Source: Candidatus Hydrothermarchaeum profundi
GTDB lineage: Archaea; Hydrothermarchaeota; Hydrothermarchaeia; Hydrothermarchaeales; Hydrothermarchaeaceae
Direction: 5' to 3'
Length of the DNA stretch: 64,000 nucleotides
NCBI GenBank assembly: GCA_002011125.2
Contig: MTMF02000009.1
Coordinates: 1,332,989 to 1,396,988, forward strand
Position 1 is the stretch's first letter, and each line of letters starts with the position of its first letter. Shown here one piece after another: positions 19,367 to 23,636 of this stretch. Made by a program: the position numbers and the translations under genes. The notes below the pieces were generated by a model. The model searched no databases and was not told where the DNA came from. It was given only the letters and a program-made list of their open reading frames with translations.

Positions 19367-19654
19367 TTATAAGACTCCTTTGTTAATAAGCCGATTAACC
19401 TGCGGTTTAGTGTACCGCCAGACGATATCTCCTTTTTCTTCTCCTTGGACGTCCCATGGTTTGACTAGAACCACATCTCCTTCTCTAATCCATATCTTTC
19501 TCCTTATTTTTCCCGGTATCCTGCATATGCGTATTTTATCATCTTTGCACCGGACTTGCATTCTGCTTGCCCCAAGCATTCTTTCAACTATGCCAAACAC
19601 TTCGTCGTCTTTTGGCATTCTTAACCGTTTGAGTTCAGGTGCTTCTTCTACCAG
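19367..19654 (-). CDS. Translation initiation factor aIF1A, probable CUG start
   Basis: An S1/OB-fold factor ([46 protein letters not shown]). The first conventional start is ATG 19618 (83 residues), but the reading frame continues upstream as [17 protein letters not shown], which matches the conserved N-terminal R-x-R-x-P stretch of archaeal aIF1A. GGAGG at 19662-19666 is seven bases before CTG 19654, whereas ATG 19618 has no SD. I therefore propose a CUG start and 95 residues. The factor stimulates initiator tRNA and mRNA binding to the 30S subunit. Confidence 0.85.
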
Positions 19655-19693
19655 TAAAATACCTCCAAATTTGTTTAGAAACCTTTATCTATA

Positions 19694-20891: not shown

Positions 20892-21410
20892 ATGATTATG
20901 GCGCTAAGAACGTTAAAACCAAAGAAGATAGACCCTTCTTTTATAAATGAAGTCAAGGCCGCTGGAGGAAAAAATATCGGGGCATGTTTCCAATGTGGGA
21001 CATGTGTAAGCTCATGTCCTGCGGGGCTAGTTACTACATATAAGATTAGGAAGATATTGAGGAAAACTTCTCTCGGTTTAAAAGACGATGTTTTAAAGAG
21101 CGAGGATATCTGGAAGTGTACGACGTGTCTAGCGTGCTATGATAGGTGTCCTAGGGGTGTAGAGCCGGTAGAAGTGATATTAGCTATAAGAAATATCGCA
21201 GTAAGGCATGGATATTTTCCTGAGAAACTTAAGAGTAATTTGAGAAATATTATAAACGCTGGGCAGCTGGTGACATTGACTGATGATATAAGTGGTTTTA
21301 GAGTGGAGTTGGGCCTGAGTGAGAACTCTCCTCATATGAAGTCTTCTAAAGCCCTCGATGAAGTTAACAAGATTTTGGAGATTACGGGTATAGAAGGATT
21401 GGAGGTATAA
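20892..21410 (+). CDS. hdrC: CoB-CoM heterodisulfide reductase subunit C
   Basis: A 172-residue iron-sulfur protein with two 4Fe-4S motifs: CFQCGTCVSSCP near residue 32 and CTTCLACYDRCP near residue 77. HdrC transfers electrons between HdrA and the HdrB active site in reduction (or, in reverse metabolism, formation) of CoM-S-S-CoB. The pair of ATGs at 20892 and 20898 leaves the exact start open; TATA spacing favours the first. It is followed two bases later by hdrB. No hdrA is nearby. Confidence 0.92.
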   Translation: MIMALRTLKPKKIDPSFINEVKAAGGKNIGACFQCGTCVSSCPAGLVTTYKIRKILRKTSLGLKDDVLKSEDIWKCTTCLACYDRCPRGVEPVEVILAIRNIAVRHGYFPEKLKSNLRNIINAGQLVTLTDDISGFRVELGLSENSPHMKSSKALDEVNKILEITGIEGLEV

Positions 21411-21412
21411 GT

Positions 21413-22297
21413 GTGAGGTATTCTCTTTTCTTGGGATGTGTTGCACCGCACCGTTATCCTGGGATTGAAGCGGCTACGAGGAAAATATTTGATAGGCTGG
21501 GTATAGATTTAATTGATATGGGCGATGCTTCTTGCTGTCCTGCGCCAGGTGTCTTCAGATCCATAGATAATTTAACATGGTTAGCGCTTGGAGCTAGGAA
21601 TATTACTATAGCCGAGGAGAATAAAGCTGATATTCTGACTGTGTGTAATGGATGTTTTGGCTCATTAAACGAAGTCAATTATAGGTTAAAAAATGATGTT
21701 ATCACTAGGTTGGAAGTGAACGATATTTTATCGAAGATAAATAGGGAATACAAGGGGGAGAGGGAGGTAAAACATGTTGTAGATGTGTTGTATAATGATG
21801 TAGGAGTAAAAGTTATAAAGGAAAGCGTAGCTGTGCCTTTAGAAGCTTTAAAAGTTGCAGTGCACTATGGGTGTCATTTCTTAAGACCTAAGACCCATTT
21901 AGAGCATAATGGCAGTGCTAGAATGAAAGCATTTAATGCGTTGGTAGAGGCAACTGGGGCTACTAATGTCGTCTATAGGGACAAACTTTTGTGTTGTGGG
22001 GCTGGTGGCGGGTTGAGATCTAATGACTTAGAGTCTTCTTTAGAGATTGCTAAACAAAAGTTAGAGAATATCCGTGAATCGGGGGCGGATATTATAGTCA
22101 ATCCTTGCTCGTTTTGTACATTTCATTTAGATACTTCTCAGCCTGCATTAAACGAGAAATATGGGGAAACCTTTAGGATCCCTGTACTCCATTATGTTCA
22201 GTTTCTTGGCCTGGCGATGGGATTAAAGCCCTATGAGTTGGGATTACAGAAACACTTAATACCTCTAGATGATTTACTGGAGAAGGTGGGTGTATGA
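21413..22297 (+). CDS. hdrB: CoB-CoM heterodisulfide reductase subunit B
   Basis: A 294-residue protein with two CCG domains: the first has C9, SCCP and NGCFGS; the second has HYGCH, LLCCGAGGG and NPCSFC. These cysteines bind the two non-cubane 4Fe-4S clusters that cleave the heterodisulfide. GTG start with GGAGG upstream. The downstream gene overlaps as ATGA. The hdrC-hdrB order is the usual methanogen arrangement. Confidence 0.93.
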   Translation: MRYSLFLGCVAPHRYPGIEAATRKIFDRLGIDLIDMGDASCCPAPGVFRSIDNLTWLALGARNITIAEENKADILTVCNGCFGSLNEVNYRLKNDVITRLEVNDILSKINREYKGEREVKHVVDVLYNDVGVKVIKESVAVPLEALKVAVHYGCHFLRPKTHLEHNGSARMKAFNALVEATGATNVVYRDKLLCCGAGGGLRSNDLESSLEIAKQKLENIRESGADIIVNPCSFCTFHLDTSQPALNEKYGETFRIPVLHYVQFLGLAMGLKPYELGLQKHLIPLDDLLEKVGV

Positions 22298-22812
22298 ATT
22301 TAGAAACTTTGCAGCAGGTTTGGTTAGTTACAATGAATATGGCAACCGAAGTTAGACGTAAAGGCATTGAAGTAGGCAATGCCTTTGACTATCTTAGGAC
22401 TGCTAAGGTGATATTAAACGAAAGGACCTTCGGCGAGACCGAGGATAGAGGTTTCCTTTTTAGAGCTTCTGAGCTTATAGACAATGCGCAGAGGGATATC
22501 TTCATTGCAGCCGAAGCTCTTGGTAAAGAATTCACAGTTGACTGGGAGAATAAAATTAGGGAGGTCCTTAATGGAAAGAAAGTGGGAGAATTCCCTGCAA
22601 CTAGATCATCTAAATTTTATTCACAGCTCCCGAGAAGTAAGAATTGGGTTAGGGTGCCAGATAAGAAGGAAGTTAAAGAAAAGGTTGAGGAACTTAAGGA
22701 CATTGAGGTTAGGCCTCATGGAGAGGGATATCTATTATTGATAGGCGATAAAGCTTCTTTGAGAAAAGCTCTTGACGCAATTTCTCCCGTTATGAGGGTG
22801 AAAGAACGATAA
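22294..22812 (+). CDS. Methanogen-type conserved protein, DUF2096-like
   Basis: A 172-residue soluble protein beginning with a helical segment (QQVWLVTMNMATEVRRKG) and ending in a small alpha/beta part (YLLLIGDKASLRKALDAISPVMRV). I assign it to DUF2096 from memory of size and sequence style. It overlaps hdrB (ATGA) and the next gene (ATAA), so it belongs to the hdrCB transcript. A link with heterodisulfide metabolism is inferred from position only. Confidence 0.6.
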   Translation: MNLETLQQVWLVTMNMATEVRRKGIEVGNAFDYLRTAKVILNERTFGETEDRGFLFRASELIDNAQRDIFIAAEALGKEFTVDWENKIREVLNGKKVGEFPATRSSKFYSQLPRSKNWVRVPDKKEVKEKVEELKDIEVRPHGEGYLLLIGDKASLRKALDAISPVMRVKER

Positions 22813-23636
22813 TAGATTGCCATGCCCATGTTTCACAAAAGCCGAGGGCTATACCTGATGACCTTAAAGAAGCCGCCTTCGGGTATCACCTCAGAACAGG
22901 TATAGAAGTTACTCGGTATGGGGTGGTTGATGATCTTTTAGAACAATCTGTCTCATATGGAGTTTCTAAAATTTGCGTTTCGCCGCTAATAAGCTCCGCG
23001 AGGGAGGAATATGAAGGACTTAATGATTTCACTTCCTATGTGGTTAGAGATAACCCCTGTTTCGAAGGATTTGCTGTAGTTCATCCTTTTCAAAAATATG
23101 CGAAAGGAGAGCTTGAGAGAGCCATATACGATCTGGAGTTAAAAGGACTTTTTCTTGATCCTGAGTTACAGGGATTCAGATTTTCTGATGATAGATTCTG
23201 GGATTTTCTGGAATTCGTGAAGACCCTTAAAATTCCTGTTTTTGTTCATTGCGAATATAATTCCGAAAATAAGTTTTTTGTGCCTGAAGAGGTTAATGAA
23301 GTGATTATTAGTTTTCCAAGAGTAAACTTTATTTTCCCTCAAGCTGTAGGATGGGATAAAGTATATTCTGAGGAGAATGTATTCTATGATACATCACATT
23401 CTTCTTCTGACAAGCTATTAGAAATGGTAACGGAATTAGGGGCAGACAAGGTATTATTCGGCTCTGACTTCAAATATAACTTCTACCCGGCTTATGAGAT
23501 AGAGAAAATCCAGGGACTTGACTTGTCTGAGGAAGAAAAGGAGAAGATTCTTGGGGGGAATATGGCACAGCTTTTTGGTGTTTCTGTTGAGAAAGGCACG
23601 AGGTTTTCTGGTTTTTTTAAAAGATTTTTTCGGTAA
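22809..23636 (+). CDS. Amidohydrolase-family metal-dependent hydrolase, probable AUA start
   Basis: A TIM-barrel amidohydrolase of about 275 residues. The metal-binding HxH of strand 1 (DCHAHV) is encoded at 22815-22832, upstream of the first GTG in frame (22923), which would remove it. The only suitable initiator is ATA 22809, giving M-IDCHAHV, with GAGGGTGA seven bases upstream and an ATAA overlap with the previous stop. Later motifs: FVHCEYN, DTSHSSSDKLL and LFGSDFKYN (metal Asp). Substrate unknown; the closest style is the COG2159/TatD-like group. Confidence 0.8.
   Translation: MIDCHAHVSQKPRAIPDDLKEAAFGYHLRTGIEVTRYGVVDDLLEQSVSYGVSKICVSPLISSAREEYEGLNDFTSYVVRDNPCFEGFAVVHPFQKYAKGELERAIYDLELKGLFLDPELQGFRFSDDRFWDFLEFVKTLKIPVFVHCEYNSENKFFVPEEVNEVIISFPRVNFIFPQAVGWDKVYSEENVFYDTSHSSSDKLLEMVTELGADKVLFGSDFKYNFYPAYEIEKIQGLDLSEEEKEKILGGNMAQLFGVSVEKGTRFSGFFKRFFR

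Follow-up and report, generated by a model that had tools for sequence, protein, structure and literature searches.

An amidohydrolase gene of Candidatus Hydrothermarchaeum profundi that probably starts at an ACG codon

We analyzed a window of 64,000 nucleotides, i.e., the whole stretch G000:C9:1332989-1396988, from an assembly of Candidatus Hydrothermarchaeum profundi (designated G000; 2.19 Mb, 19 contigs). Two adjoining genes of its plus strand are considered here. The upstream gene (22294..22812) matches DUF2096 (PF23100; E=8.1e-10 for the window copy) and ends with TAA at 22810-22812; HdrC- and HdrB-like genes (window 20892-22297) lie directly 5' of it. The downstream gene (22806..23636) encodes an amidohydrolase-like protein. 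Its reading frame is open between a TGA shortly upstream and the stop codon TAA at 23634-23636, and it has 276 codons if read from the ACG at 22806. The protein matches the Amidohydro_2 profile (PF04909) with E=1.2e-17 and 65 bits, against a gathering cut-off of 26.4. The alignment spans profile positions 1-288 of 289, and position 1 corresponds to residue 2 counted from the ATA at 22809.

The first ATG, GTG, or TTG in the amidohydrolase frame is the GTG at 22923-22925 (plus strand), 39 codons past ACG 22806. We reject this GTG as the start, since both the coding signal (log-odds of about +6 for the composition upstream of the GTG) and homology extend upstream of it. The original prediction had pointed out that the motif IDCHAHV is encoded before any of these three codons in frame, which is correct, and had proposed the ATA at 22809-22811 as the start. 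We uphold that translation should begin 5' of GTG 22923 with a codon that is not ATG, GTG, or TTG; we do not uphold ATA as this codon. The earlier reading passed over the ACG at 22806-22808, directly before that ATA, and mis-assigned the start by one codon.

The codons of the start region are GGT GAA AGA ACG ATA ATA GAT TGC CAT GCC CAT. As was described earlier, GAGGGTGA (22794-22801, plus strand) stands upstream, and ATA 22809-22811 overlaps the DUF2096 stop at 22810-22812 as ATAA; a second ATA follows directly at 22812. GAGGGTGA contains a Shine-Dalgarno-like (SD) motif, GGTGA (22797-22801, plus strand), which lies within the 3' end of the DUF2096 gene and is followed by ACG after 4 nt. The junction reads ACGATAA and is thus not a -4 (ATGA/GTGA) overlap. 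A T at 22807 would give AATGATAATAG: DUF2096 would end in TGA (GAA TGA) and overlap as ATGA with an amidohydrolase gene that begins with ATG ATA ATA. As it stands, DUF2096 ends one codon (CGA) past the TGA that this T would create. A frameshift fusion of the two genes was considered and rejected: no slippery heptamer was seen by eye at GTG AAA GAA CGA, and the genes are separate in relatives.

We searched 23 genomes of the class for the amidohydrolase. A match was found in 17 and the close form, as judged by score, in 12, G000 included; the weaker-scoring matches were taken as paralogues. An initial scan of the genome contigs with the single amidohydrolase protein had found no relative. In all 11 syntenic relatives, which belong to the same order, the ORF directly upstream has a DUF2096-like C-terminus; these ORFs were compared by eye, and the DUF2096 profile scan covered the window copy. 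The starts of the relatives, which are assignments from alignment and gene context in a set where several genes have an in-frame GTG or TTG further upstream, are ATG in ten cases and GTG in one. The distance from the assigned start to a conserved Asp is 3 codons in 8/11 relatives and 4 codons in 3/11. In the window it is 3 codons from ACG 22806 and 2 codons from ATA 22809, and the latter distance is found in 0/11 relatives. The relatives with 3-codon spacing begin with MIID (seven) or VTID (one), and those with 4-codon spacing with MKIFD or MKVFD. In a MAFFT alignment of 9 of the 11 relatives every start falls in the ACG column. In the eight relatives with 3-codon spacing, it is the second codon that corresponds to ATA 22809; it is ATA (Ile) in seven (L002-L006, L011, L012) and ACC in one. 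The assigned ATG or GTG codons of most relatives thus stand at the ACG, and none at the ATA where the original prediction expected them. ATA 22809-22811 is most likely the second codon (Ile) of the gene, and ACG 22806-22808 most likely its start.

The stop of the upstream ORF is at +1 relative to the start (ATGA or GTGA) in 7/11 relatives, and the ATGA overlap is absent in 4/11. A single T-to-C difference at 22807 from the ATG of the relatives is enough to explain the missing ATG as well as the shifted DUF2096 stop. The ATAA overlap, previously read as a parallel to ATGA overlaps, looks like a by-product of this difference.

Spacing was assessed on 405 confident ATG starts of G000, of which 238 have an SD match of at least 4 nt. 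The commonest aligned spacing is 4 (54/238), followed by 6 (38), 5 (30), 3 (25), and 7 (19). Counted from GGTGA, the ACG lies at 4, ATA 22809 at 7 (19/238), and the second ATA at 10 (4/238). The ACG is one base from AUG and has an SD motif at a normal spacing, as a near-cognate start should. Initiation at AUA 22809 is unlikely. Its spacing is within the range used, and ATA starts look real elsewhere in the order (uS9 and archaeosortase C in genome G003, NadA and CbiQ in genome G013); against it, a spacing of 7 is less favored than the 4 of the ACG, and in 0/11 relatives is the start assigned to that codon, which aligns with their second one.

The metal ligands of the amidohydrolase, which we take to be the HxH motif, the His of FVHC, the Asp of GSDF, and a His at the Gln position of FIFPQ, differ between relatives. 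The window protein has the first three; at the last position it has Gln, where 8 of 9 aligned relatives have His. One His of HxH is missing in 6/11 relatives (L004, L006, L007, L008, L009, L010). The relatives (L002-L012) thus lose metal-ligand residues in different ways, and on their sequences some of them may be non-catalytic. It is true that a start at the GTG would delete HxH, as had been argued; the argument is weakened by the relatives that lack one of its His residues. The case for an upstream start rests on N-terminal homology, not on the HxH motif. With ligands so variable, the protein might cope without its first strand, and the gene could have lost its start and be decaying, or be made as the short form from GTG 22923. 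We consider this hardly credible in view of the 276 codons without a stop, the coding composition upstream of the GTG, the Amidohydro_2 match from profile position 1, and the same pattern in uS9 and fibrillarin (see below), which are not expected to be dispensable.

Other genes of G000 were surveyed in the same manner. Genes were called by composition in 850 kb (875 genes), and a gene was flagged if its coding signal began at least 8 codons before the first ATG, GTG, or TTG. Of 26 flags, 8 are supported by homology that extends 5' of the first canonical start, 3 are possible, and 15 are false or undecided. These verdicts rest on profile scans for 10 flags, on tblastn for aIF1A, and on inspection by eye for the remaining 15. 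The 8 supported cases are best read as starting with ACG (4), ATT (2), and ATC (1), the eighth being ambiguous.

The genes that fit ACG are those of the amidohydrolase, uS9, fibrillarin, and thioredoxin. The uS9 gene appears to begin ACG AAA GTA ATT CAA ACA TCT after GAGGTGAT with an SD spacing of 5, and its residue 2 corresponds to position 3 of the profile NF001749. Among 20 relatives of uS9, ATG or GTG stands at the ACG codon in 13, the start lies 1-4 codons earlier in 4, ATA is found in 1, and 2 were not read. For fibrillarin, residue 5 corresponds to profile position 6 and the first canonical start is 86 codons in; a GTA two codons after the ACG is a possible alternative start. For thioredoxin, residue 4 corresponds to position 5 of PF00085, and an ATA directly precedes the ACG. 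The remaining supported cases include threonine ammonia-lyase at ATT (residue 1 at position 1 of TIGR02991 and the first canonical start 69 codons in, with the best model, TIGR01127, beginning only at residue 20), a TIGR00284 protein at ATC (residue 1 at profile position 1), a PRS2-type AAA protein at ATT (match to the N-terminal domain beginning at residue 30, with the first canonical start at 50), and a PIN_9 protein (residue 3 at profile position 1, first canonical start at 27). The 3 possible cases, in which a non-canonical start may also be used, are an EMC3-like gene, aIF1A, and a VWA gene (1881242, TAACG). For another ATA candidate outside the 26 flags (1764194, minus strand), profile scans gave no family match.

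The aIF1A gene lies in the window itself (19367-19660, minus strand). Its first ATG (19618) would remove the N-terminal tail, and the ATG of aIF1A from G001, a genome of the same family (L251), aligns with a window ATT (19660-19658) directly after GGAGGT. In eukaryotes, tails of eIF1A influence the stringency of start selection.

The survey was also applied to control genomes. In 250 kb of E. coli, chosen to contain infC and pcnB, it gave 4 flags among 210 genes with infC (ATT) at the top; pcnB was missed because of an in-frame TTG upstream. The survey thus works but undercounts. In G013, a Pyrohabitans genome, there were 10 flags among 825 genes, 9 of them away from contig edges. Three were profile-scanned: NadA and CbiQ, both ATA, are supported by homology, and the profile of PurL begins near its ATG. 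NadA (quinolinate synthase) and CbiQ thus seem to start at ATA (G013:C2, L216-L226 and L196-L215). A change of the nadA start from ATG to ATA in an engineered archaeal strain, mentioned in PMC11834397, is not used as evidence here. G001 gave 2 flags among 134 genes, and the one away from contig edges is not convincing. G003 gave 13 flags among 165 genes, 11 of them away from edges, and all four that were profile-scanned are supported: uS9 and archaeosortase C with ATA, methanogenesis marker 12 with ATT, and a KaiC protein with either ATT or ATA. The apparent ATA start of G003 uS9 is at L260:3481, and those of archaeosortase C and methanogenesis marker 12 are at L269 and L274. Homology-supported ACG starts were found in G000 only, among G000, G001, G003, G013, and E. 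coli as surveyed.

For 793 G000 genes we also took the in-frame codons that lie 5' of the first canonical start and asked how many are preceded by an SD motif at a spacing of 3-7. In tests framed after the window gene had been seen, this holds for 6/28 ACG codons versus 136/4174 of all other codons (Fisher p 3e-4), and for 6/28 ACG in frame versus 0/29 out of frame (Fisher p 0.01). Two of these six ACG have a canonical start one codon downstream and are unlikely to be starts themselves. Among codons followed by a coding extension of at least 8 codons, the counts are 4/7 for ACG versus 12/448 (p 3e-5, post hoc), or 3/6 if the amidohydrolase is left out (p 6e-4, post hoc). ACG is not the sole codon with such a signal: ATA is also raised in G000 (13/204 in frame versus 3/293 out of frame), and 7 of these 13 have a canonical start one codon downstream. 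Of the in-frame ACG of G013, 1/17 is preceded by an SD motif. Four of 141 G000 genes aligned N-terminally with G013 were flagged, and only uS9 is convincingly without a canonical start; therefore the phenomenon appears rare, about 1%.

The C at 22807 could be a sequencing or assembly error, the cell having ATG and an ordinary ATGA overlap, and indeed the single change would restore exactly the arrangement of 7/11 relatives. As a check, 723 G013 proteins were compared with G000, and 187 matched at 38% identity or more (51,478 aligned codons). The matched genes contain no frameshift-like breaks, and their 6 in-frame stops are, by eye, gene ends or lie upstream of the start. Random substitutions costing 5-8 starts predict 14-23 nonsense codons in these 51,478; the comparison makes random assembly error unlikely and does not address pure T-to-C errors, which create no stops. 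A proxy for lost stops, same-strand overlaps of more than 60 nt, has little power and gave no excess (G000 4/547, G013 8/401). Three other SD-preceded, homology-supported starts in the 850 kb also read ACG, and a T-to-C change would not produce the starts at ATT and ATC. Taken as a whole, an error at 22807 is an unlikely explanation.

The same ATT and ATC starts are left unexplained by C-to-U editing of the mRNA, a process of plant organelles that would here convert ACG to AUG and CGA to UGA. Plastids are known to restore ACG starts in this way, C-to-U editing of an archaeal tRNA is known in Methanopyrus, and ACG is the largest class in G000 (4/8 supported cases). Even so, we regard editing at this junction as very improbable.

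We conclude that the amidohydrolase probably starts at ACG 22806-22808 by near-cognate initiation, likely coupled to the upstream stop. What the computation shows is the homologous position of the start, its spacing, the recurrence of such starts, intact reading frames, an ordinary-looking initiator tRNA gene, and the presence of aIF1. The ancestral junction would have been an ATGA overlap of the start ATG with the DUF2096 stop TGA. A T-to-C change at 22807 would have converted ATG to ACG and TGA to CGA; the TAA that follows would have rescued DUF2096, lengthening its product by one Arg. After finishing DUF2096, ribosomes may be retained by GGTGA, which lies 4 nt before the ACG, and reinitiate at this codon, where the ordinary CAU initiator tRNA (Met-tRNAi) would read it with a middle-base mismatch, presumably giving Met. 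From the sequence of one assembly we infer that the ACG is translated, that its use is coupled to DUF2096, which amino acid it gives, and in which direction the base changed.

A special initiator tRNA was considered and rejected, since the presumed initiator (L107, CAU) looks ordinary; one distinct tRNA-Thr(CGT) is present among the tRNAs read, which are part of 47 tRNA matches. Absence of aIF1 is ruled out: its gene is present and intact (G000:C9:1411747-1411959, L166). This aIF1 has Ala18 where 17 other aligned sequences of the class have Asp or Glu, which we mention as a lead only. Outside the window, at G000:C9:1317278-1321652, there is a likely complete pyrrolysine cassette. Its genes, named by eye, resemble pylD, pylC, pylB, pylSc, and pylSn. 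Pfam gives class II synthetase matches for the pylSc-like gene and none for the pylSn-like gene, and ARAGORN calls a tRNA-Pyl (CTA) in the cassette. TAG ends 115/663 confident G000 genes. PylSc in Hydrothermarchaeota has already been published (PMC11764691).

To our knowledge, ACG is not among the start codons of NCBI table 11, and archaea are without the bacterial IF3. The closest familiar case is infC of E. coli, which encodes IF3, starts at ATT, and is autoregulated. As appears to be the case here, a near-cognate codon starts a conserved translation gene, and the same survey finds it; ATT keeps the first two bases of the start codon, whereas ACG mismatches the middle one. Plant organelle mRNAs are edited, and AAV uses the ribosome of its eukaryotic host. 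Plant organelle and AAV capsid genes have ACG at the start position of the coding sequence, as here.

The Streptomyces gene sigR has a GTC start (PMC5472188). It resembles our case in having a very unusual start codon in a functional gene, and differs in being a single bacterial gene repressed through IF3. The Asgard (Kariarchaeaceae) tubulin AtubA likely has a rare ATT start (PMC13394414); there too the start in an archaeal metagenome assembly is deduced from homology and distance to the ribosome binding site, and it differs in being ATT and in a single gene. Termination-reinitiation at -4 overlaps (ATGA/GTGA) is described for Haloferax and other prokaryotes in the available sections of PMC10666635, where a non-canonical start is mentioned only for ATT in -5 overlaps, and ACG is absent. 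Such an overlap is the arrangement that we presume to be ancestral for the DUF2096-amidohydrolase pair; the present junction departs from it in having ACG as the start and the stop moved 3 nt downstream. An archaeal ACG start was not found among the literature matches listed, which cover titles and abstract openings and thus part of the literature, and the sole ACG in PMC5316973 belongs to an adapter. As judged by sequence comparison, the ACG start appears to be a real case of near-cognate initiation.

Since ACG also suits uS9, fibrillarin, and thioredoxin (and perhaps the VWA gene), and ATT or ATC suits further genes, initiation in this lineage of Hydrothermarchaeales seems tolerant of near-cognate codons. 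A wider reading, which we hold tentatively, is quite possible: the lineage may use ACG regularly in several genes, including those of uS9 and fibrillarin, either because start selection is lax about the middle base or, with lower probability, because start codons are edited from C to U. If true, Archaea would offer a natural example of a start codon that NCBI table 11 does not list. Gene finders that rely on ATG, GTG, and TTG, or on all of table 11, are expected to truncate such proteins; counted from ACG, the loss would amount to 86 residues in fibrillarin and 39 in the amidohydrolase. If ACG does start uS9 and fibrillarin, archaeal start selection can accept a mismatch at the middle base even in conserved genes, a point relevant to how its stringency is set by aIF1, aIF1A, and aIF2. 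It also makes testable whether termination-reinitiation or a strong SD motif relaxes the choice of the start codon.
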